A stretch of 44,235 nucleotides of DNA from an uncultured Gallionellaceae bacterium (GTDB lineage Bacteria > Pseudomonadota > Gammaproteobacteria > Burkholderiales > Gallionellaceae), in the NCBI GenBank assembly GCA_903913145.1, contig CAIWKC010000084.1:1-44235 (forward strand), given 5' to 3'. Below are positions 21,884 through 37,186 of this stretch, piece by piece (position 1 is the first letter of the stretch; every line of letters begins with the position of its first letter). The notes below the pieces were generated by a model. The model did not search any database. It had not been told where the DNA came from and worked only from the letters and a program-made list of their open reading frames with translations. The position numbers were made by a program, and so were the translations under genes.

Positions 21884-22366
21884 GTGGTTGAAATACAAAA
21901 ATCTAACCCCCCTCAGTGCCCTCTTGTCAGGGGGGAAGACGGGGGTTTCCCGGACATGGTTGTGGGGTGGGGCGAAGTAGCTCCTTCCCTGAAAAGGGGA
22001 AGTAGGGAAGGGTTAGATTTTATTCCATACGACACAAAACTCATCGCATTAGCTCGAGCCAACAGGAAAAATTCCACCGTTGCCGAACAAAAAATCAGGT
22101 TCGAAATATTACGTAGCCGCCAATTTCCGAACTACAAATTGCTGCGACAAAAGGCAATTGATCGTTTCATTGTGGATTTCTATTGTTCATCACTGCGCTG
22201 GGTGATTGAATTAGATGGTGATAGTCATGCAGAAGATATGGCTTATGACGTTAAGCGCACACAAATTTTACAAGGCCACAATTTAGCCGTTACGCGCTAT
22301 ACAAACCATGATGTGTTACATAACATCAGCGGGATTTTTGACGATATGACAAGGCTGGTTGCCTGA
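21884..22366 (+). CDS. DUF559 (Vsr-like PD-(D/E)XK fold) protein inserted between bioB and bioF
   Basis: The recognisable domain begins near base 22022 with IPYDTKLIALARANRKNSTV. AEQKIRFEILRSRQFPNYKL, FIVDFYCSSLRWVIELDGDS and a C-terminal segment around VTRYTNHDVLHNI follow. These are the DUF559 landmarks, related to very-short-patch-repair endonucleases; the acidic residues in FIVDFY and IELDGDSH are the putative catalytic ones. No enzyme activity is established for most members. GTG 21884 gives 160 residues and ATG 21956 gives 136. Both starts lie before or within the inverted repeat at 21898-22021, and there is no start codon after it. The stop overlaps the bioF ATG by one base, so bioF translation is probably coupled to it. 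Confidence 0.75.
   Translation: MVEIQKSNPPQCPLVRGEDGGFPDMVVGWGEVAPSLKRGSREGLDFIPYDTKLIALARANRKNSTVAEQKIRFEILRSRQFPNYKLLRQKAIDRFIVDFYCSSLRWVIELDGDSHAEDMAYDVKRTQILQGHNLAVTRYTNHDVLHNISGIFDDMTRLVA
21898..22021. repeat. inverted pair of GC-rich repeats covering the start of the DUF559 gene
   Basis: AAAATCTAACCC at 21898-21909 and GGGTTAGATTTT at 22010-22021 are perfect 12-base inverted copies. The similarity continues inward: both arms run through C-rich sequence to a TCAGGG and then a G-rich block. The pair looks like two copies of one palindromic repeat facing each other, about 124 bases overall. Confidence 0.7.
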
Positions 22367-23526
22367 TGCCATTCACCGAGCTTCAAAGTAAACTTGATGA
22401 GCGTGCTGAGCAGGGTCTGCTACGCAGTCGGCGCACATTGGCAAGTCCGCAATCGCCATACATCATTGTAGATGGCACAGCCTATCTCGCCTTTAGTAGC
22501 AACGACTATCTCGGACTTGCCAATCATCCGCAACTCATTAAAGCATTGCAGCTCGGAGCCCAGCAATGGGGTGTGGGGGCGGGCGCCGCACATTTGGTGA
22601 ACGGGCATTTTGATGCCCATCACCAACTGGAACAGCAACTTGCCAACTTTATCGGGAAACCTGCCACACTGTTGTTTTCCACCGGCTACATGGCTAATCA
22701 GGGTGTGGTACAAGCCTTGGTAGGCAAGGCCGATACGGTCTTTGCCGACAAGCTCAATCATGCTTCGCTAAACGATGCCATGTTGCTTTCGCGCGCAACG
22801 GTGAAACGCTATCGGCATGGAGACACGGCACAGTTGTCGCAATTGTTGTCGCAAGTGCAAAGTGGCAGAAAACTGGTTATTAGCGATGCAGTATTTAGCA
22901 TGGATGGTGATGTTGCCCCGTTACGTGAGTTGTTGGCGTTGTGCGAGCAATACGATGCATGGCTGTATGTGGATGATGCGCACGGATTTGGTGTACTGGG
23001 AGCGCAGGGTCGAGGGTCTCTGGCACATTTCGGTATTCAATCGGAACGTATCATTTATATGGCGACCTTGGGCAAAGCTGCAGGGGTTTCCGGCGCGTTT
23101 GTAGCAGCGGAGCAAGTTGTGATTGATACGCTTGTGAATAATGCGCACAGCTACGTATATACCACGGCAGCGCCACCGGCTCTATCCGTTGCGTTATTGC
23201 AGAGTTTGCAATTGATCGGGCAAGGTGATGAATTGCGAACGCACCTGAAGCGTCTGATTGCGCAATTGCGTAACGGTTTGTCAGATTTGCCGTGGCGATT
23301 AATGCCCTCGGATACCGCTATCCAGCCGCTGCTGATTGGTGATAATAAATATGCAGTGAGATTGAGTGAAGGATTGCGTGAACGCGGCATATGGGTTGCT
23401 GCGATTCGCCCGCCAACAGTGCCACAGGGCACAGCAAGGCTACGCATCACTTTGTCTGTTGCACATAACGAGGCTGATGTGGATAAACTAATTGGTGTAT
23501 TGCATGAGCTTGCTAAGGAATTTTAG
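22366..23526 (+). CDS. bioF: 8-amino-7-oxononanoate synthase
   Basis: BioF is a pyridoxal-phosphate enzyme that condenses pimeloyl-ACP (or CoA) with L-alanine. The 386-residue product shows FSSNDYLGLANHP, GAGAAHLVNGHFDAHHQLE, LLFSTGYMANQGVVQAL, DKLNHASLNDAM and the aspartate pair of YVDDAHGFGVLG. The cofactor lysine is K237 in ATLGKAAGVSG. The C terminus has IRPPTVPQGTARLRITLS. ATG 22366 shares one base with the upstream stop (TGATG). The enzyme is complete, so the upstream insertion has not broken it. Confidence 0.95.
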   Translation: MPFTELQSKLDERAEQGLLRSRRTLASPQSPYIIVDGTAYLAFSSNDYLGLANHPQLIKALQLGAQQWGVGAGAAHLVNGHFDAHHQLEQQLANFIGKPATLLFSTGYMANQGVVQALVGKADTVFADKLNHASLNDAMLLSRATVKRYRHGDTAQLSQLLSQVQSGRKLVISDAVFSMDGDVAPLRELLALCEQYDAWLYVDDAHGFGVLGAQGRGSLAHFGIQSERIIYMATLGKAAGVSGAFVAAEQVVIDTLVNNAHSYVYTTAAPPALSVALLQSLQLIGQGDELRTHLKRLIAQLRNGLSDLPWRLMPSDTAIQPLLIGDNKYAVRLSEGLRERGIWVAAIRPPTVPQGTARLRITLSVAHNEADVDKLIGVLHELAKEF

Positions 23527-23546
23527 ATTCGCGCAGCGATGCGTGT

Positions 23547-23583
23547 GCCCCCTCTCTCTATGGGGGAGGGTTGGGGTAGGGGA
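23547..23583 (-). repeat. GC-rich repeat between bioF and bioH
   Basis: The forward strand reads CCCCCTCTCTCTATGGGGGA followed by GGGTTGGGGTAGGGG. Read on the reverse strand it begins CCCCTACCCCAACCCTCCCC, close to the unit at 8128. It folds into a C/G hairpin. Its last bases provide the AGGGGA that acts as the ribosome site of bioH. Confidence 0.6.
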
Positions 23584-23591
23584 AACGAACA

Positions 23592-24389
23592 ATGCAAATT
23601 GCCATGCACGTTGAAAGAATAGGTAGTGGTGCTCCGCTATTGATGATTCACGGCTGGGGAATGCATGGGGGAGTCTGGAGCGAAGTCGCAAAAATACTGG
23701 CAGCAAATTTTCGAGTTCATAGCGTTGATCTGCCAGGATACGGATATTCGAAAAATGCAGGATGGGTGGCAACAAAATCACCTATCCTGCTTAATGAGGT
23801 TGTAGATAGGTTGTCGGCAAATTTTGTTGAACCGCTTACCGTGTGCGGATGGTCGCTAGGCGGTCAAATTGCACTGCGCTGGGCCACGCGCGAACCGGAC
23901 AAAGTGCGACGTTTGATTCTGGTAGCAAGTACGCCTTGTTTCTCCGAACGAGAAGACTGGCCTTTCGGTATGGAAAAAAAAGTGCTGGAGAAGTTTGCTG
24001 TCGAATTAGAACAAAATCACGCAGCCACATTACGTCGCTTCATCACGTTACAATTACGGGGTAGCGAAAATGAGCGAGAGTTATTGGCGAAATTGCGCGA
24101 GCGTTTGTTCAGCCACGGTGAACCGGATATGCAAGCATTGCGCGACGGATTGAGTATTCTGCGTGATGTTGATTTGCGGAGTGAATTGCAGAGTGTAGCT
24201 CAGCCGGCCATGATAATCGCCGGTGAGCGTGACAAACTGACGCCGCCGGGAGCATCACGCCATTTGGCAGAAAATATTTCGGATGCCAGTTTGGTGGAAG
24301 TAAAAGGCGCAGCGCATGCCCCATTTCTTTCTCACCCTGATGAGTTTGTGAAGCAAGTGAAAATATTTATGGGAAGCCAAATTAATTAG
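23592..24389 (+). CDS. bioH: pimeloyl-ACP methyl ester carboxylesterase
   Basis: BioH removes the methyl group from pimeloyl-ACP methyl ester, ending the pimelate-forming part of biotin synthesis. The 265-residue alpha/beta hydrolase has LLMIHGWGMHGGVWSEVA (oxyanion region), the nucleophile S88 in CGWSLGGQIALRW, an acid in IIAGERDKLTPP and the histidine in VKGAAHAPFLSHPDEF. The GWSLGG elbow and neighbours mark it as BioH rather than a generic esterase. ATG 23592 is chosen because AGGGGA lies 8-9 bases upstream; ATG 23604 would put the serine at 84, close to E. coli S82. Confidence 0.92.
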   Translation: MQIAMHVERIGSGAPLLMIHGWGMHGGVWSEVAKILAANFRVHSVDLPGYGYSKNAGWVATKSPILLNEVVDRLSANFVEPLTVCGWSLGGQIALRWATREPDKVRRLILVASTPCFSEREDWPFGMEKKVLEKFAVELEQNHAATLRRFITLQLRGSENERELLAKLRERLFSHGEPDMQALRDGLSILRDVDLRSELQSVAQPAMIIAGERDKLTPPGASRHLAENISDASLVEVKGAAHAPFLSHPDEFVKQVKIFMGSQIN

Positions 24390-24426
24390 CCACAGAGGAC
24401 GCAGATAAATATGTGATCACTGTGGC
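24389..24426. repeat. hairpin repeat between bioH and bioC
   Basis: GCCACAG at 24389-24395 and CTGTGGC at 24420-24426 are perfect inverted copies around 24 bases. The left part, CCACAGAGGACGCAGA, resembles a dispersed intergenic repeat of the form CCACAGAGGACACAGA seen in many proteobacteria. It starts inside the bioH stop codon and is followed by AAAAAAGG, which may help bioC translation. Confidence 0.5.
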
Positions 24427-24443
24427 AAAAAAGGTTTTTAACA

Positions 24444-25313
24444 ATGAATGAATTCGAAATAGACAAGAAGCAAGTACGTCGTGCCTTCAGTCGTGCAGCG
24501 CAGAATTACGATGCCGCTGCAGTGTTGCAGCGCGAAGTCTGTACTCGCATGCTGGAAAAACTGAGTTGCATTAAGCTGCAACCCTCGCGCATTATTGACG
24601 TTGGCAGCGGCACAGGGTGGGGCACTCGCCAATTGGGTGAGCGTTATCAGAAGACTGACATCATGGCGCTGGACATTGCTATAGGAATGTTACAAGCAGC
24701 AAGAGGAACATCCAACTGGTGGCAGAAACTGTTTGCAGGAAAGCGTGAAAGTTTTGTTTGCGCAGATGTAGAGGCTTTGCCAATTGCTGCAAATAGTGTT
24801 GAGATGGTTTGGTCTAACCTGGCTCTGCAATGGTGTAATGATTTACCGTCGACTTTTGTTGAATTAAAGCGCGTGCTCAAAGTAGAAGGCTTGCTCATTT
24901 TTTCTACCTTCGGCGTAGATACCTTAAAAGAATTACGCAGCGCATTCAGTGAGGTGGACGGCTACAATCACCTGAGCCGCTTTATTGATTTGCACGACAT
25001 TGGCGATATGCTGGTGGGGGCTGGATTTGCCGATCCTGTCATGGAGATGGAAAGAATAACGCTGACCTACAATGACGTACGTGCAGTCATGCAAGATTTG
25101 AAAAGTATCGGTGCACATAATGCTACCGCGGGGCGTGCGTCGGGCATGATGGGCAAGTCTGCCTGGCAGAAAATTACCGAAAATTATGAAAAGTTGCGTC
25201 GTGATGGAAAACTGCCCGCTACCTTCGAGATTATTTACGGACATGCGTGGAAACCAGCACCCAAAAAAATTCAAGACGGGCGCGCTATCATCAACACAGA
25301 TTTTAAAATATGA
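24444..25313 (+). CDS. bioC: malonyl-ACP O-methyltransferase
   Basis: BioC methylates malonyl-ACP with S-adenosylmethionine so that the fatty acid synthesis enzymes can extend it to pimeloyl-ACP methyl ester. The 289-residue product has the opening DKKQVRRAFSRAAQNYDAAA, the SAM loop IIDVGSGTGWGTRQL, the conserved NLALQWCNDLPSTF, FSTFGVDTLKELRSAF and a C-terminal EIIYGHAWKP. All are BioC signatures. It is slightly longer than the E. coli enzyme (251), as is usual in betaproteobacteria. It overlaps bioD in an ATGA. Confidence 0.95.
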   Translation: MNEFEIDKKQVRRAFSRAAQNYDAAAVLQREVCTRMLEKLSCIKLQPSRIIDVGSGTGWGTRQLGERYQKTDIMALDIAIGMLQAARGTSNWWQKLFAGKRESFVCADVEALPIAANSVEMVWSNLALQWCNDLPSTFVELKRVLKVEGLLIFSTFGVDTLKELRSAFSEVDGYNHLSRFIDLHDIGDMLVGAGFADPVMEMERITLTYNDVRAVMQDLKSIGAHNATAGRASGMMGKSAWQKITENYEKLRRDGKLPATFEIIYGHAWKPAPKKIQDGRAIINTDFKI

Positions 25314-25972
25314 ACTATTTCATCACCGGCACCGATACAGGTGTTGGAAAAACGCTAGTGAGCTGTGCCTTACTTCATGCCTTTGCCGCACAAGGCAAGC
25401 GGGTGGTGGGATTTAAACCCGTGGCAGCAGGATGCGGTGAAAATGACCGTAGCGAAGATGCTGAACAATTGTGGGCTGCCAGCAACGTTCTGGCGACTTA
25501 TGGACAGATTAATCCGTATTGTTTTGTGCCTCCGATTGCGCCGCATATTGCAGCAAGACGTTCCGGTGTGCGCATTGAATTTAATCGCATCCTTACTTCT
25601 TTTCGCGAGCTGTCGAGTCAGGCTGATGTGGTGGTCGTGGAAGGCGCAGGGGGTTTTTTGATCCCTTTGAATGAAAAACAAGACGGAGGGCACCTTGCCC
25701 GCGAATTGGCCTTGCCGATTATCGTGGTTGTCGGAATGCGTTTGGGGTGTATCAACCATGCCTTACTGACACAGCGGGTGATTGAAGGCTGCGGTTTAAT
25801 ATGCGCGGGATGGGTTGCCAATGTTACGGATGCCGAGATGCTTGCCTTGAATGAAAATATTGAAGCCTTACAACAGCGCATCGCAGCTCCCTTGCTTGGA
25901 GTGGTTCCCTATCAACTCACCCCGGATGCGAACAGGGTCGCAGGGATGCTGGACATCAGTTTGCTGGGGTAG
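25310..25972 (+). CDS. bioD: dethiobiotin synthetase
   Basis: BioD closes the ureido ring of dethiobiotin from 7,8-diaminononanoate, CO2 and ATP. The 220-residue product has the P-loop FITGTDTGVGKTLVSCALL, the KPVAAGC substrate loop, VVVEGAGGFLIPLNEKQ and VVGMRLGCINHALLT. Its start overlaps the bioC stop by 4 bases. With bioB, F, H and C it leaves only the bioA step (diaminononanoate synthesis) unaccounted for in this window. Confidence 0.95.
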   Translation: MNYFITGTDTGVGKTLVSCALLHAFAAQGKRVVGFKPVAAGCGENDRSEDAEQLWAASNVLATYGQINPYCFVPPIAPHIAARRSGVRIEFNRILTSFRELSSQADVVVVEGAGGFLIPLNEKQDGGHLARELALPIIVVVGMRLGCINHALLTQRVIEGCGLICAGWVANVTDAEMLALNENIEALQQRIAAPLLGVVPYQLTPDANRVAGMLDISLLG

Positions 25973-29100: not shown

Positions 29101-31360
29101 TACCTTGTCACCATTTTCCGAAAAACTGCGCATACTATTGCGCGAATCACGCTGGCTAATGCTCGTGGCAGTAGCCTTCTATTTTATTCTTGTTCTCTAT
29201 GGCTACGACCGTGCCGATTCAGCCTGGTCACATAGTGACAGCAGAGCCTTAACAACGCACAACCCAGGCGGCATGGTTGGGGCATGGCTGTCCGATCTGC
29301 TGCTTTACGTCTTTGGATTTTCTGCCTGGTGGTGGGTGGTGTTGATGCTACAGCGAGTATGGGCAAGCTACCGAAGCATTCGCGCCGATAGTCTTTTTGC
29401 CGAACGTGCCGCGTGGGCGGTCGCCTTGGGATTTTTTATTCTGATTCTTTCTAGTAGTGCGCTGGAAGCCTTGCGTCTTTACACATGGAAAGTGGCGATG
29501 CCACTCGCGCCAGGCGGCATGTTCGGTGCAATATTGGGCAGCTTTATGGCTCGCTTGATTGGATATACAGGCGCGACTTTGTTTTTGTTGGCATTAATGG
29601 CAATTAGTTTTAGTTTGTTTACCGGTTTGTCGTGGTTGCGATTCATTGATCGTGTGGGAGAAGTAATTGAAACCGCTTATCTGTGGGCACGAAATGCGTG
29701 GCAAACAAGACAGGATAAACGCATCGGTGCCCACGCAACAAATGAACGTTCTGCGGTGGTGGAAGTAGAAAAGAAGCGGGTTGTTGATCACCAGCCTATT
29801 CATATCGAATTGCCGGTTGTTGAAGTGCCGCGTTCCGCCCGCGTGGAAAAAGAAAAACAAGTGTCGTTATTTGACGATATGCATGATTCAAATTTGCCAC
29901 CGCTGCATTTGCTGGATCAGCCGCGTCATGAAGTTGAAGTTCTGTCCGCAGAAACGCTGGAATATACCTCGCGCCTGATAGAGCGCAAACTTAATGATTT
30001 CGGAGTAGAGGTCAAAGTTGTGGCAGCCTACCCCGGCCCGGTAATTACACGCTACGAAATCGAGCCGGCAGTTGGCGTTAAGGGTAGTCAGATTACTAAC
30101 TTGGTGCGCGACCTCGCACGGGCGTTGTCGGTGGTTAGTATTCGACTGGTAGAAACCATCCCGGGAAAAAGTTATATGGCACTGGAACTGCCGAATCCAA
30201 AACGGCAGATGGTGCAGCTATCCGAGATTCTCGGCTCACAAGTTTACGCCGATATGGGGTCGGTACTGACCATGGCGATGGGGAAAGATATTGCCGGTAA
30301 ACCTGTTGTTGCTGATCTGGCCAAAATGCCGCACGTGCTGGTGGCTGGTACAACCGGTTCGGGCAAGTCGGTGGGTATCAACGCCATGATCCTCAGTATT
30401 CTTTACAAGGCCACACCGCAGCAAGTGCGCATGATGTTGATCGATCCCAAGATGCTGGAACTTTCTGTCTATGAAGGTATTCCGCATTTGCTGGCCCCTG
30501 TTGTCACCGATATGCGCCAAGCGGCATCGGGTCTGAATTGGTGTGTGCAGGAAATGGATAAGCGCTACAAGCTGATGTCCGTGCTCGGCGTGCGCAACAT
30601 GGCAGGATATAACCAAAAAGTTCGCGAAGGAATTAAGGCGGGCAAACCGCTTGCGAACCCGTTTACACTGACACCGGATAATCCGGAGGCCCTGGAAGAG
30701 TTGCCATTTATCGTTGTCTTCATTGATGAGTTGGCCGACCTGATGATGGTGGTGGGCAAAAAAGTTGAAGAACTCATCGCCCGACTTGCGCAGAAAGCAC
30801 GCGCATCAGGCATTCATTTGGTGTTGGCAACGCAACGTCCCTCTGTAGATGTCATTACCGGACTGATCAAAGCTAATGTGCCAACCCGAGTAGCTTTCCA
30901 AGTTTCGAGCAAAATAGACTCACGCACGATTCTGGATCAAATGGGCGCGGAAGCTTTGCTGGGGCAGGGTGACATGCTCTACTTGCCCCCCGGTACCGGC
31001 TATCCGCAACGTGTGCATGGCGCTTTTGTATCCGACCAGGAAGTGCATCGCGTAATCGAATATCTCAAGTCTCACGGCGAAGCCAACTATATCGAAGGCG
31101 TACTTACTTCGATGGAAGAGCAGGGGGACGGGGCAGAACTTGATGGCGGTGCGGAAGCCGAAGCAGATCCACTTTATGATCAAGCGGTGGCCGTCGTGCT
31201 TAAATCACGACGTGCGTCGATTTCATTTGTGCAGCGAGATCTGCGCATTGGTTACAACCGTGCCGCACGCCTTATTGAGCAAATGGAAAAAGCGGGTATC
31301 GTGACTGCAATGCAGCATAACGGGAACCGTGAAGTGATTGCTCCGGCGAGACCGGAATAG
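29081..31360 (+). CDS. ftsK: DNA translocase FtsK
   Basis: FtsK pumps chromosomal DNA through the division septum and activates XerCD recombination at dif. The 759-residue protein has four N-terminal membrane helices (about 22-185), a variable linker (about 190-285) and the motor. The motor contains [17 protein letters not shown], the Walker A GTTGSGKS at 423-430, a Walker B near [15 protein letters not shown] and [22 protein letters not shown]-terminal gamma winged-helix domain (about 690-755) recognises polarity sequences. It is the short form (E. coli FtsK has 1329 residues), usual outside enterics. ATG 29081 lies inside the regulator gene; TTG 29105 is a less likely start. Confidence 0.95.
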
Positions 31361-31494
31361 ATTTGTTTGCGGCAAAATAAAAGGCTAAAACTGATTTTTT
31401 GATATGCGAGAAAAGTTGTCAGCGTAATGCTTCTGCAGCTCAATAGCGTGCAGGAACTGCAAATCAAGTTAGTGCATTTTCTGGATCGTGCTTG

Positions 31495-31510
31495 CCATCA
31501 AATTTGATGG
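31495..31510. promoter_or_regulatory. perfect 16-base palindrome upstream of the RsbQ-like gene
   Basis: CCATCAAATTTGATGG is its own reverse complement. It lies about 60 bases before the -10-like and -35-like pair at 31554-31582, in a 251-base gap after ftsK. No T-run follows, so a terminator is unlikely. A dimeric regulator could bind here. No family can be assigned. Confidence 0.35.
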
Positions 31511-31553
31511 GCTAACATCAATAAAACACCAAATGTGCCGTGTGAAATCTAAA

Positions 31554-31582
31554 TTGACTTTTGAGGTTGAGTTTCCTATCCT
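31554..31582 (+). promoter_or_regulatory. candidate promoter of the RsbQ-PAS-GGDEF operon
   Basis: TTGACT at 31554-31559 and TATCCT at 31577-31582 are 17 bases apart. Transcription would begin near 31590, leaving a 22-base leader before ATG 31612. The spacing is ideal and the sequences are good matches to the sigma-70 consensus. Confidence 0.5.
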
Positions 31583-31611
31583 TAATCTCATTAAACACCG
31601 TTGGAAACCCG

Positions 31612-32451
31612 ATGAACAAAATTAGTTCGAGTTCAAATATTTTTGTAAGAAACAACGTCAAGGTCTTGGAGGGTGATGGTGACGTGGTGCTATATGCCCA
31701 TGGATTTGGATGTAATCAAGATATGTGGGATCGTGTGACGCCGGCTTTCAAATCCTCCCACAAACAAGTTTTATTCGATTATGTAGGAAGTGGTCGATCC
31801 GACATTTCCGCCTTCGACTCTGATAAGTACGCCAGCCTAAAAGGCTATGCCCAAGATGTCCTTGATATTTGTGATGCTCTGGATTTAAGAAGTGGCGTCA
31901 TCTTTGTTGGTCATTCGGTGAGTTGCAGTGTAGGCATTCTTGCGTCGATTGCACGCCCGGGACTCTTCGCCAAATTGGTTCTGATAGGCCCCAACCCTTG
32001 CTTTGTCAACCATGCGCCGGAGTACGTCGGTGGCTTTGAGAAAGAAGATTTGGAAGGGCTTCTGGCGTTAATGGATCAAAACTACATTGGCTGGGCAAAC
32101 TATCTTGCGCCAGTGGTATCGGCACAAGGAGAAACAGGTGCAGTAACGACGGAGCTTTCAGACAGCTTTTGCTCTACCGATCCATTTGCGGCAAAGGTCT
32201 TTGCACGGACTACGTTTTTTTCAGACAACAGGAATGATCTGCCAAAGGTTACAGTGCCTTGCCTTATTCTTCAGCACCGTACCGACACTCTTGCTCCAGT
32301 CAGCGTTGGCGAGTTTGTCCATGCTCATTTGAGCGGGAGTACATTGAAAGTTCTGGAAGTAATAGGGCACTGTGCACACATGAGTGACCCAGAACTTGTT
32401 GTAGATGCGATGCAAGAATTTCTTACCTTGCCCAATCAGACGGCAAAGTAG
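31612..32451 (+). CDS. RsbQ-like alpha/beta hydrolase (signalling)
   Basis: The 279-residue product closely resembles RsbQ, the hydrolase needed by the PAS phosphatase RsbP in the Bacillus energy-stress pathway, and belongs to the fold of plant KAI2/D14 receptors. It has NNVKVLEGDGDVVLYAHGFG at the N terminus, CNQDMWDRVTPAF, YVGSGRSD, the nucleophile in VFVGHSVSC-type sequence (read as IFVGHSVSC), the acid in LQHRTDTLAPVSVGEFVH and the histidine in VIGHCAHMSDPELV. The triad is complete. The frame is open to 31561, but ATG 31612 matches the family start. The next gene, a PAS-GGDEF protein, begins 2 bases after its stop. It therefore probably produces or senses a ligand for that PAS domain. Confidence 0.87.
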   Translation: MNKISSSSNIFVRNNVKVLEGDGDVVLYAHGFGCNQDMWDRVTPAFKSSHKQVLFDYVGSGRSDISAFDSDKYASLKGYAQDVLDICDALDLRSGVIFVGHSVSCSVGILASIARPGLFAKLVLIGPNPCFVNHAPEYVGGFEKEDLEGLLALMDQNYIGWANYLAPVVSAQGETGAVTTELSDSFCSTDPFAAKVFARTTFFSDNRNDLPKVTVPCLILQHRTDTLAPVSVGEFVHAHLSGSTLKVLEVIGHCAHMSDPELVVDAMQEFLTLPNQTAK

Positions 32452-32453
32452 TC

Positions 32454-34091
32454 GTGCCAACTTTTGATCATTTACCTTGCCCTGCTTTAGTGACCGACCG
32501 GGGCGGCGTCGTTCAATCGATCAATCAGTGCTTGCTGGAGCTAGTGGGCGGGGTCAAAGACAATTGGGTCGCAAAGCCGTTGGACCTCATGTTTCCAATG
32601 GCAAGCAGAATATTCTTGCAGACGCACGTTTGGCCCATGCTGTTGCGCGAAGGTCGTGTCAGCGAAATCCGCTTGCAGTTGCTTAGCGATGCTAATAAAC
32701 AAGTTCCAGTGTTTGTGAACTGCCAAAAGTCTACGCTTGACTCAATTGAGCGTTATACGTGGGTCTTCTTTGTGTCGATTGAGCGCATTCGTTATGAGCA
32801 AGAGTTGCTGGAAGCCAGGCAAAGGGCTGAAGCGATGTCAGTCGACCTCGCCAAAAGTGAGAGATTCATTCGCACTGTAACAGAGGCAATGCCAAGCATG
32901 ATCGCTTACTGGGACTTTCAGTTGCGGTGTCAGTTTGCAAACAAGTCGTACTTGGAATGGTTTGGGCGAACACCTCAGGAAATGTTAGGGTTGTCTATAT
33001 CGACCGTCTTGGGCCCTAATTTGTTTGAAGAAAATTGGCCGCATATTCAAGGCGCTTTGTCAGGCGAGCCTCAGGAGTTTGAGCGTGCCATTCTAAAGCC
33101 CGATGGGACTGTTGGCCAAACACTGGCAAATTACATCCCCGACTTCAATGCGAATGGAGACGTCTTGGGATTCTTTGCGCTAGTGACCAACATCAGTCGT
33201 CTGAGGGAAGCAGATGCGGCGATTCGACTTTCGGCAAGCGTGTTTGAAGCCACTATGGAAGGCATCATGGTGACAGATGCAACTGCAACAATTATTTCTG
33301 TTAACCCTGCCTTCACCGCGCTCACAGGATACACATCCGAAGAAATTATTGGTCAGAATGCGCGAATACTGAAATCTGGACGCCATGATGCGGCATTTTT
33401 TAACGCGATGTTTCATGATTTGCGTGTCAGCAAATTGTGGAAGGGTGAAGTCTGGAGCAAGCGAAAAGACGGCACGATTTACCTGGAACGACTCTGCATT
33501 TCGGCAATTTGTAACGAAGCTGGAGTGGCTCATCGCTATGTCGGTGTATGTGCTGACATAACCCAGCAGTGGAACAAAGAGCAATTAGTCCAACACATGG
33601 CTTTGCACGATGGTTTAACAGATTTGCCGAACCGCGCTCTCTTGATGGAACGCATTGGCCAATTGATCGCCATGACTGCACGTGAACCACGTCGCATTGC
33701 ACTCCTGTTTCTTGATTTGGATGGGTTCAAGTTGGTCAATGACACTTGGGGCCATGAGATAGGTGACCAGGTACTAAAGACGGTTTCCTCGCGACTCTTG
33801 AGTTTGCTCCGACCGTCAGACACCGTCGCCCGCCTTGGGGGCGATGAATTCGTTCTACTGCTAGACAACCCGGAAAATCGCGATAGCGTAGCCATGATTG
33901 CCTCGCGGGTCATTGAAGTGGTTAATGATCCTATGAATTTTAATGGTAAGACCGCACATGTAGGAACTTCAATCGGAATCGCTTTTTTTGCGAAGGAAGT
34001 GACATCGCCTGACGATCTACTCAAAAATGCTGACGATGCAATGTACAAGGCTAAGGCCGCAGGAAAAAACACTTACCGTTTCTCGGATTGA
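32454..34091 (+). CDS. triple-PAS diguanylate cyclase paired with the RsbQ-like hydrolase
   Basis: The 545-residue soluble protein starts at GTG 32454. The first PAS domain (about 5-105) contains a segment around RIFLQTHVWPMLLREGRVSE like that of PAS proteins found next to RsbQ homologues. Two further PAS domains (about 135-255, MIAYWDFQLRCQFANKSYL, and about 258-375, GIMVTDATATIISVNPAFT) and a GGDEF domain follow. The active motif is GGDEF at 462-466, with an inhibitory RPSD at 453-456. There is no membrane helix and no EAL. The likely role is cytoplasmic cyclic di-GMP synthesis under control of the hydrolase product through the first PAS domain; that link is inference from gene pairing. Confidence 0.88.
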   Translation: MPTFDHLPCPALVTDRGGVVQSINQCLLELVGGVKDNWVAKPLDLMFPMASRIFLQTHVWPMLLREGRVSEIRLQLLSDANKQVPVFVNCQKSTLDSIERYTWVFFVSIERIRYEQELLEARQRAEAMSVDLAKSERFIRTVTEAMPSMIAYWDFQLRCQFANKSYLEWFGRTPQEMLGLSISTVLGPNLFEENWPHIQGALSGEPQEFERAILKPDGTVGQTLANYIPDFNANGDVLGFFALVTNISRLREADAAIRLSASVFEATMEGIMVTDATATIISVNPAFTALTGYTSEEIIGQNARILKSGRHDAAFFNAMFHDLRVSKLWKGEVWSKRKDGTIYLERLCISAICNEAGVAHRYVGVCADITQQWNKEQLVQHMALHDGLTDLPNRALLMERIGQLIAMTAREPRRIALLFLDLDGFKLVNDTWGHEIGDQVLKTVSSRLLSLLRPSDTVARLGGDEFVLLLDNPENRDSVAMIASRVIEVVNDPMNFNGKTAHVGTSIGIAFFAKEVTSPDDLLKNADDAMYKAKAAGKNTYRFSD

Positions 34092-34151
34092 TATTCCTTT
34101 TGCCTGCCAACTCCCTTATCAAGCCACTCTCCCTAGACCAACGCTAGCTAA

Positions 34152-34190
34152 CTGACAAATGAGCCCGCACTCATTTGACCGTCAGCTTTT
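34152..34190 (+). terminator. candidate terminator after the PAS-GGDEF gene
   Basis: CAAATGAG at 34156-34163 and CTCATTTG at 34170-34177 form an 8-base perfect stem with loop CCCGCA. CTGAC at 34152-34156 and GTCAG at 34181-34185 can extend or compete with it. CTTTTC and later GTTTTG follow on the forward strand. It lies between two convergent genes. The T-run is short, so efficiency is uncertain. Confidence 0.45.
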
Positions 34191-34204
34191 CATGTTTTGT
34201 ACCA

Positions 34205-36718
34205 TTATGGGACCGTCGTGACCTTGCTTTTGCTCTGTACCTGCGGTAGCTTTAGTTCCAGTTGGGCTACAAAAATATCAAGTTGTTTTTTAAGCTGCTT
34301 GAGTAGTGCATCGATTTGACTTTGCGTTTGACGCTCCTTTATCGCGGTCTCGATCTTTTCCGCCAACTGTTGCAAATCGGTAGCGCTAATGCTCGCGGAT
34401 CCGCCTTTTAACGTGTGAGCAAGTCGTTCTGCAACGTCCCATTGGTTTTCATCTAGCGCCTTACGTATTGTCTCTGTTACGGATTTTTGCCCTGACACGA
34501 ATTTGCGCAGCATTGATAGGTAGAGAGGCTTTTTGCCGAGTACGCGACGCAGGCCGTTGGCAACATCCAGTCCTTCGATGCCGGACGGCAATTCGATGTC
34601 TTGCGGTATTGGAGATTTTTCTTTTTCAGCGGAGGGAGGAACATGACGTGGTTTGGCCCATTTCAGCAGTGTCTTCCACAAATCTTCCGGTTCAATTGGT
34701 TTGGCAATGTGGTCATTCATGCCGGCAGCCATGCAACGATCACGATCGCTTTGCATGGAGTTGGCTGTCATGGCAACTACCGGAAGATCATTGAATCTAG
34801 CGTCTTTGCGAATCTCTTGTGTCGCCATCACACCGTCCATCACAGGCATCTGCATATCCATCAACACAATGTCGTAATCGGACGTCCTTATTTTGTCCAG
34901 AGCGATTTGTCCGTTCTCGGCAAGGTCAACATTGAATCCGGCATCACGCAACAATTCCAAACCGACTTCCTGATTCAAATCATTGTCCTCGACGAGAAGA
35001 ATACGAGCGCCCTTGATGTTAGCCAATTCGTTGAACGTATCTGTTGTTTTGTCGGGACCATGTTTTTTTTCTACGACACCGCCCAGGACGCGAACTACCC
35101 CATCAAATAACACCGACGCTGTTACCGGTTTGATCAGTACGTCTGCTATGCCCGCCTTCTCTGCCTCTTTAATTATTTCTTCACTGCCATAAGCTGTCAC
35201 CATGATCATGTGCGGAATGATGTTATGTGAACGTTTTCTTAGACGACTGGATGTTTCAATGCCGTCCATGTCAGGCATTAACCAATCAAGAAACACAATA
35301 TCGTAAGGTTTACCCTGAGCTTCAGCGATATCTGCAGCGGCGATGGCAGCTTGCCCTGATTCAGCCTGATCAACGTTGAAACTCATGTTATTGAGCATGA
35401 CGCACAGAACCTGTCGAGCATTTTCGTTGTCGTCTACAACGAGTACGCGTTTTCCTTGAAAGTCACTTGCCAATGCTAACTTTCGCGCAACTCCAACGCC
35501 TTTGCCAAGTCTTGCCGTGAACCAGAATGTGCTGCCCATGCCGAATTCACTTTTTACACCCACCTCACCACCCATTAACTCAGCCAGTTTTTTTGCAATG
35601 ACCAAACCCAGACCAGTGCCGCCAAATTTTCGGGTCGTTGAGGCATCTGCCTGAGAAAAGTTCTGGAATAATCTGCTTATCTGTTCTTCTGTCAAACCAA
35701 TACCGGTATCACGTACAGAGCAGTACAACAGCACTTCATTTTCGGATTCTTCTTTGGGGGAGATGGAAATAACAATCTCACCTTTATCAGTAAATTTGAC
35801 TGCATTGTTGCAATAGTTGATTAGAACCTGCCCAAACCTGAGGGAGTCTCCAATCAAAACGGAGGGTACGTTTTTGCCTATGTTGAAAACGAGTTCGATC
35901 TGCTTGTTAGAAGCTTTGTCTGCAATTAAATCTGATATATTCTCAATTACTTTCTCAAGTTCAAATTCTGTATGCTCAACGGAAAGCTTCCCTGCTTCAA
36001 TTTTGGACAGATCAAGAATGTCGTTGATGATGCCGAGCAAGTGGCGGCTGGAACCTTTGATTTTGTAAATGTAGTCGCGTTGGCGAGGGGTCAAATCTGT
36101 CTTGAGTGCCAAATAGGACATGCCGATAATTGCATTCATCGGCGTACGAATTTCGTGACTCATATTGGCCAGAAAATCTGATTTGGCAAGGTTGGCAACC
36201 TCGGCAGTCGACTTGGCAATTTCAAGTTCGGTATTTTTCTCTTGCAACAATCGATCAAGCCGTTTACGTTCGGTGATATCTCTGAAAATGACGGCAATCT
36301 TGTAGCTTCCTAATTCGCCGATCCGAAAGACGTAAAGGTCGTACCAGTGCTTTCCGAAATAGTCGGTCTCGCTCTGAAAACGGTTTGGCTCACCAGTCCG
36401 AGCGACATCGCCGTAAATTTTGAACCAATACGGTTCCAAATTTGGGACAAGCTCTGAAACACGTTTCCCGATGGCGTTGGTTGCTCCATTCTGTTTCTCG
36501 AAAGCAGGATTTGTTTCCAGAAAGACCCAGTCGATCAGGTTTTCGTGCTCGTCATAAATCATCTCGAGGATGCATAAACCTTCATCAGTTAAATTGAAAA
36601 TCGAGTGATAACGCTCCTTGCTCGAGCTCAATTCAGCAATCAACCTCTGTTGGCTGTCTGCCTTGTCCTCTGCGGTTTCGAGACGTTCTTTTAATTCTGC
36701 GTATGATGGCTCAGTCAT
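34205..36718 (-). CDS. hybrid histidine kinase: PAS, HisKA, HATPase, two receivers, HPt
   Basis: The 837-residue protein is probably soluble. It has an N-terminal coiled coil (about 5-30), a PAS domain (about 33-155, ending [10 protein letters not shown]) and HisKA with H188 in [14 protein letters not shown]. HATPase_c follows ([31 protein letters not shown]), then two receivers (phospho-acceptors in [13 protein letters not shown] and [13 protein letters not shown]) and an HPt domain with H768 in [12 protein letters not shown]. This is the BarA/TorS-like phosphorelay layout. Both receivers keep their aspartate. No dedicated response regulator is adjacent on its strand. It is convergent with the PAS-GGDEF gene and separated from lolA by 468 bases. 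Confidence 0.9.
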
Positions 36719-37186
36719 TTGAGATTGCTCATGTGGAATTAGCAGTTAAACAATAAAGGCTATGAAAAATGACTTTTCTCCATCATTCATAAAAACATTG
36801 TATTGTTGCTTTTGCTATAGATAGGTACGCTGACCAACATAAAAAACGATTGGCCGCACTATTTAGTGCAAGAAAGCCAACGTCCGGTTCGCGGCAACGA
36901 ATACGTTACGAACAATGACCAAATGGGATATTTGAATCATTCACCATAAATTCAAAGATATCTAACTTCCAATATGCTCGCCAAATAAAAAACAAAACGC
37001 AACTTCATTAAAATACTGGATAATTTGTAACAATGACTTTTAGGTTGGGGCATATGGGATAACAGCCACCTGACTAAGGCAGCAAGTTGCCAAGTCATGG
37101 GTAATCGCATATACCTCTGCGAAATTTAAAAAATCGAATATTTAAAGGTGTTAAGCTCGTTTTACGATTAACGACGGAGTGCAGTA
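36719..37186. other. 468-base intergenic region between the hybrid kinase and lolA
   Basis: The stretch is AT-rich and has no plausible gene. The left part should hold the minus-strand promoter of the hybrid kinase, which I cannot place firmly. The right part holds a hairpin element at 37066-37100 that resembles one upstream of serS. Weak lolA promoter boxes (TTTAAA at 37141-37146, TACGAT at 37163-37168) are possible. Confidence 0.4.
37066..37100. repeat. hairpin element upstream of lolA, related to the one upstream of serS
   Basis: The fold is CCA, CC, TGACT, AA, GGCA, a six-base loop GCAAGT, TGCC, A, AGTCA, TGG. Outer stem TGACT/AGTCA and flanks match the element at 39200-39239, while the inner stem differs on both sides. 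Sequence similarity continues rightward for about a dozen bases (GGGTAATC here, GGTTATC there). Confidence 0.5.

Follow-up and report, generated by a model that had tools for sequence, protein, structure and literature searches.

A gene pair on contig CAIWKC010000084.1 of an uncultured Gallionellaceae bacterium raises the question whether an alpha/beta hydrolase can act as the sensory partner of a diguanylate cyclase. The stretch of DNA analysed, 44,235 nucleotides, is referred to below as the window. A sequence-only reading of it had proposed that the hydrolase and a PAS protein form a switch feeding cyclic di-GMP. Homology, gene linkage, the signature of the first PAS domain and the swapping of outputs all spoke for such a switch, and the pair is quite probably an RsbQ-PAS signalling module with a diguanylate cyclase output, in which the state of the hydrolase sets cyclic di-GMP synthesis. 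The switch itself is not new, because diguanylate cyclase outputs were already reported for RsbQ-PAS modules in 2011 (PMC3183031). The window adds one more member, an output swap in close relatives and evidence of a recent gain.

Nadezhdin, Brody and Price (2011) described the bipartite RsbQ-PAS module from 45 gene pairs, with a PPM phosphatase, a histidine kinase or a diguanylate cyclase as output (PMC3183031). In the excerpted text of that paper, the RsbP-type PAS is the most N-terminal domain in every pair, and five proteins carry extra PAS domains; proteins with one or two such extras are mentioned. RsbQ contacts the PAS domain directly in Bacillus subtilis; alanine substitutions of F55, Y59, L48 and E72 in RsbP were null, F55A abolished RsbQ binding, and mutants of the catalytic triad, cited as earlier work, were also null (PMC3183031). 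The authors described the energy-sensor assumption as being without experimental support and the ligand of the module as unknown (PMC3183031), and the natural ligand of plant KAI2 is likewise given as unknown in the excerpted text of PMC10504578.

In the mechanism proposed here, RsbQ would bind or hydrolyse a small molecule in its Ser-Asp-His pocket and, by analogy with B. subtilis RsbQ-RsbP, would dock on the F-alpha helix of PAS1 of its partner; on the same analogy, the active site of the hydrolase would be needed. Docking would then shift the packing of the PAS-helix-PAS-PAS-GGDEF dimer, a control of the dimer that we infer, and cyclic di-GMP synthesis, for which the sequence predicts the activity, would be raised or lowered with the state of the hydrolase. 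The other two domains, PAS2 and PAS3, probably serve as further inputs or help to transmit the signal.

Organisation of the gene pair

The first gene (31612..32451, forward strand) encodes an RsbQ-type alpha/beta hydrolase of 279 aa with an ATG start, as identified from its ORF, by Pfam and by a search of solved chains. In the ORF list its frame opens at an upstream TTG at 31561, the ATG being at 31612. The hydrolase had been read as intact from its RsbQ-like elbow and its histidine motif, and the catalytic residues Ser102 (31915-31917, in GHSVSC), Asp225 (32284-32286) and His253 (32368-32370, in GHCAHMS) were all present on the forward strand. Its stop codon is separated by 2 bases from the GTG start of the second gene (32454..34091, forward strand; ORF, Pfam), which encodes a PAS-PAS-PAS-GGDEF protein of 545 aa; both ORFs are intact and arranged as had been proposed.

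All domains of the second protein are encoded on the forward strand. PAS1 (residues 1-112; 32454..32789) is of the RsbP-PAS type and carries C9, F54, H58, P61, E71 and P85. PAS2 (about residues 136-255; 32859..33218) was matched by Pfam PAS_4 over residues 144-251, and PAS3 (about residues 256-376; 33219..33581; Pfam) has a DIT motif at its end. The GGDEF domain (residues 383-539; 33600..34070) gave a full-length Pfam match with an E-value of 4.3e-48. Two sequence motifs lie within it, RPSD as RxxD (33810-33821) and GGDEF (33837-33851), spaced by five residues in the string RPSD-TVARL-GGDEF. We take the GGDEF motif to be the cyclase active site and RxxD to be the inhibitory site; the string indicates that both are intact, in agreement with the sequence-only reading. 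The promoter that the pair had been thought to possess was not borne out, as the single sigma-70-like match (TTGACT-17-TATCCT, 9/12; 31554..31582, forward strand) was not above chance: a scan of positions 31300-34300 gave 5 promoter-like sites, and shuffled sequence gave 3.4 (sd 2.0).

The same two frames were found in the same order in the loci of relatives. Read-through of the rsbQ stop codon into the PAS gene was considered as well and rejected, since no phase of the PAS frame was enriched among 95 pairs (24, 41 and 30 pairs in phases 0, 1 and 2).

The hydrolase is of the RsbQ type

The hydrolase was searched against all solved chains, and the figures that follow are from the best 60 of 143 matches. 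B. subtilis RsbQ (1wom) was the best solved relative (E 1.4e-92, 313.6 bits) and Olei00960 of Oleispira antarctica (3qvm) the second (E 1.1e-76, 261.6 bits), followed by KAI2/D14 chains with 148-192 bits; the next hydrolase chains reached at most 51. Within these matches the protein is nearer RsbQ than KAI2/D14 (313.6 against at most 192 bits). Its earlier assignment to the RsbQ type was upheld, and a placement among ordinary esterases was not seen (148-314 bits for RsbQ/KAI2/D14 against 51). NCBIfam gave generic hydrolase matches only, far under their cut-offs, so that annotation pipelines would label the protein a plain alpha/beta hydrolase. The window genome contains one such gene, its sole other match being a distant hydrolase with 21% identity.

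Linkage with PAS partners and exchange of outputs

Loci were gathered by RsbQ alone, not by PAS. The census of 103 drew on 74 loci from named genomes, one of which (L076) was dropped because it had no RsbQ at the threshold used, on 29 further regions and on the window. These 103 loci contain 102 different RsbQ sequences. L068 and L118, which may be one genome seen twice, are the same in RsbQ. The catalytic Ser and Asp were conserved in 103/103 loci and the His in 102/103. L019 is the sole locus with Asp in the catalytic His column, which may be due to the alignment or may mean that activity has been lost.

The search of genomes for RsbQ homologues beside PAS proteins, suggested by the earlier reading, revealed a PAS partner immediately downstream or fused in 97 of the 103 loci, window included, and an absence of linkage was not seen. 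The automatic survey accounted for 95 of these; L122 is fused, and in L030 the full PAS-PAS-PAS-GGDEF protein was recovered by tblastn, its frame beginning 5' of the survey cut-off. The remaining six loci had no intact partner: for L045 this is only because its contig stops 153 bases further along, in L017 all that is left is a PAS remnant of 38 residues, and in L040, L041, L119 and L134 no PAS partner was found beside RsbQ by survey and tblastn. Five intact-looking RsbQ (all of these except L045) therefore stand without an intact adjoining partner. L040 and L041, in Hydrogenophaga-named records, have an identical RsbQ with the variants GHSASC and GHAAHMS; L119 and L134 carry diverged RsbQ copies which grouped on the RsbQ tree, a grouping that is unsure because long branches meet there. 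In the reverse search, PAS1 against 300 genomes of the order gave 5 matches at E <=1e-8, although this query missed eight further RsbQ-bearing genomes. RsbQ adjoined in 4/4 of the matches at <=1e-20 (window included), and the fifth match, a weak one in G195 (E 7e-10), had no RsbQ beside it.

Outputs in the 95 surveyed loci were GGDEF in 63 (15 with EAL), histidine kinase in 27 and none in five. Among these five, L114 is a kinase by Pfam, and so is L067 when a second reading segment is included; the frame of L009 runs to the end of its contig, and L008 and L028 seem to be truncated. On an RsbQ tree of 103 rows, made by a quick method and with many open forks, the output changed between kinase and cyclase at least seven times, and at least 11 changes were counted with three output states; L067 and L114 were labelled by hand, and L008, L009, L028, L126 and L128 were left unlabelled. 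The window was placed with cyclases of the triple-PAS kind from records named Rhodoferax or Oxalobacteraceae. Inside this group, L004 (84% identical in RsbQ and 69% in PAS1) showed three further PAS_3-type matches and HisKA in place of GGDEF, after which the contig ends; it is a clear case of an output swap among close relatives.

Conservation and covariation of PAS1

By analogy with the pairs of PMC3183031, PAS1 is the expected docking site of the hydrolase. The window PAS1 agreed by class at 9/9 published signature sites (C10, L13, L48, Q53, F55, C56, Y59, E72 and P86 of RsbP), and across 95 loci all nine sites were found in 34 and at least seven in 82, in a mapping that assumes a constant one-residue offset from RsbP and our own assignment of class letters to sites. 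P61, E71 and N24 were invariant (95/95), F54 was aromatic in 91/95 loci and H58 was His or Tyr in 93/95. PAS1 ends VFFVSIERIRYEQ, without a DIT motif, as expected of the PAS in the module of PMC3183031, and PAS3 ends CADIT. A search with the PAS1 sequence gave no match to solved structures at E up to 1.

Conservation bears on the alternative that survives best, in which the hydrolase works in metabolism and its product, formed inside the cell, diffuses to PAS1 or is loaded into it, the PAS domain being the sensor (model 1 of PMC3183031). That paper left this model open, with the null triad mutants of earlier work, and a catalytic triad near-invariant in at least 102 of the 103 loci suits it. 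PAS1, however, is far more variable than RsbQ (median p-distance 0.58 against 0.38 in 57 cyclase loci), and its conserved sites, as far as can be judged from their positions in the sequence, would cluster on the F-alpha helix and not over the whole pocket. We regard this model as possible, though on the doubtful side, and favour direct docking of RsbQ on PAS1.

Distance correlations were calculated for 57 cyclase loci, with near-identical ones removed, and separately for 24 kinase loci. In the cyclase loci they were 0.86 for RsbQ-PAS1, 0.53 for RsbQ-GGDEF and 0.66 for PAS1-GGDEF, and 0/2000 permutations reached any of the three. The partial correlation of RsbQ with PAS1 given the output was 0.79, and that of RsbQ with the output given PAS1 was -0.09; the kinase loci gave 0.70 and 0.16, respectively. 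Among 16 loci that have the PAS1-PAS2-PAS3-GGDEF architecture of the window, RsbQ correlated with PAS2 (0.87), PAS3 (0.85), GGDEF (0.82) and PAS1 (0.82), and no PAS1-specific co-evolution beyond co-inheritance was found. This equal tracking of all domains indicates that the signal comes from exchange of domains at the border of PAS1. Mutual information between residues of RsbQ and of PAS1 gave no clear covariation (top z 4.9; effective number of sequences 68.5 of 95). The test of co-evolution between hydrolase and first PAS domain that had been suggested thus gave a partial correlation over the 57 cyclase and the 24 kinase loci, but neither a PAS1-specific effect in the 16 nor a clear signal at the level of residues.

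A single-chain RsbQ-PAS-GGDEF protein

One of the two copies in the one-contig genome G578 is a single-frame RsbQ-PAS-GGDEF fusion of 585 aa with the GGEEF variant (L122/L139; L139:1501-3255, minus strand), and the other copy is unfused. The second copy of G578, G706 and G708 each have one stop within the corresponding stretch, and for the first two of these it was placed between the genes. Pfam called the hydrolase and GGDEF of the fusion and left the PAS uncalled, yet this region aligns with PAS1 and showed a PAS-like order of strands and helices in an AlphaFold model. For the RsbQ-PAS part, the model had a pLDDT of 90.8 and a pTM of 0.72 with a low-confidence linker, the domains being good and their arrangement not firm; it was made with an alignment of 56 rows in place of a 117-row version in which rows with PAS alone had been set wrongly against RsbQ. 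Residues 54-61 of PAS1 align with a stretch that falls in helix 325-342 of the model. Among the 50 Foldseek matches listed, all concerned the hydrolase part, with 3qvm and 1wom best. No earlier account of an RsbQ-PAS-GGDEF fusion was found in a literature search or in the excerpted text of PMC3183031. With cyclase-linked modules, and above all with the fusion, ligand screens could be read directly through an enzymatic product, cyclic di-GMP.

The fusion also bears on the improbable case that RsbQ and the cyclase are operon neighbours which do not interact, their linkage being due to joint inheritance of a cassette. Such inheritance would account for the equal covariation of all domains with RsbQ among the 16 loci that share one architecture. 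The linkage, however, spans Betaproteobacteria, Campylobacterota, Alphaproteobacteria and Bacteroidota-named records with differing output domains, RsbQ tracks PAS1 and not the output, the proteins are fused in one genome, and the B. subtilis pair interacts according to the excerpted text of PMC3183031. Chances are slightly smaller again that the cyclase is silent or inhibitory, for example binding c-di-GMP via RxxD only, with the PAS protein as receptor or scaffold: the outputs of relatives do include GGEEF and EAL partners, and the cyclase activity in the window is a predicted one, but the GGDEF motif is intact in a full-length domain. An ordinary esterase or metabolic hydrolase beside an unrelated PAS-GGDEF protein, as the generic NCBIfam matches alone might suggest, is effectively excluded by the 97/103 linkage and by the drop in score, about 100 bits, from the RsbQ/KAI2/D14 group to the hydrolase that follows among solved chains.

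Within the favoured reading of a signalling module, a wider proposal is that RsbQ-PAS1 forms a mobile receptor cassette, neutral as to output, that recognises a single conserved small molecule, a bacterial counterpart of the KAI2 ligand, and is plugged into varied second-messenger and kinase systems. Outputs are exchanged and RsbQ evolves slowly relative to its partners, both of which agree with this proposal; we nevertheless consider it unlikely. If true, the receptor would be plugged into the host's own second-messenger or kinase system, and in at least one genome fused into a receptor-cyclase.

Gain of the module in the window lineage

The module was found in one of 60 relatives searched, namely the window itself, and none of the 7 other genomes searched from the genus had it (E 1e-40; several incomplete). 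At 1e-60, RsbQ was present in 12/300 genomes from the order and in 18/398 from the phylum. In G002, G003 and G005, roughly 100-130 bases separate ftsK from lolA, the next gene. The ftsK-lolA interval of the window comprises 5.8 kb and contains the module together with a hybrid kinase, and that of G007 comprises about 2.2 kb with a gene for an Mrr-type restriction endonuclease; G006, G001 and G004 were uninformative owing to contig ends or to the lack of an ftsK match. Absence of the module from the genus relatives, together with adjacent ftsK and lolA in three of them, suggests that it was probably gained in the window lineage, with transfer as the simplest reading. Base composition was not outstanding (0.460 against 0.476).

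What lies at the ftsK-lolA junction (window 31361-37186) thus varies within the genus. The hybrid histidine kinase (34205-36718, minus strand; HisKA, HATPase, two receivers and Hpt by Pfam) converges on the module and may be part of its insertion. Elsewhere in the window, aminotransferase, hydrolase, methyltransferase and AAA_26 genes lie in a row at 22366-25972 (Pfam); we take them to be bioF-bioH-bioC-bioD, which have the look of a biotin synthesis cluster. Four SpoIIE-type phosphatase matches were observed in the window genome (on C207, C390, C148 and C52), so partner-switching pathways may coexist with the module.

Comparison with known systems

The module of PMC3183031, as far as its excerpted text goes, shares with the window an rsbQ immediately 5', an N-terminal RsbP-type PAS, a GGDEF output and optional extra PAS domains, and A1SVT3 and A1SX34 of Psychromonas ingrahamii, with cyclase output, are examples of the same kind. 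The window differs in that its protein has another two PAS domains ahead of GGDEF and in having relatives without the module. B. subtilis RsbQ-RsbP resembles the window pair in hydrolase family, gene order and PAS1 signature sites, but its output is a PPM phosphatase in the sigma-B pathway, whereas that of the window is GGDEF. Olei00960 (3qvm) ranks behind RsbQ as the second best solved relative of the hydrolase among the best 60 of 143 matches. KAI2 and D14, the plant receptors for karrikins and strigolactones, have the hydrolase fold and the catalytic triad in common with the window hydrolase, at a similarity below that of RsbQ, and their partners are MAX2/D3 and the SMAX/D53 proteins, not PAS proteins.
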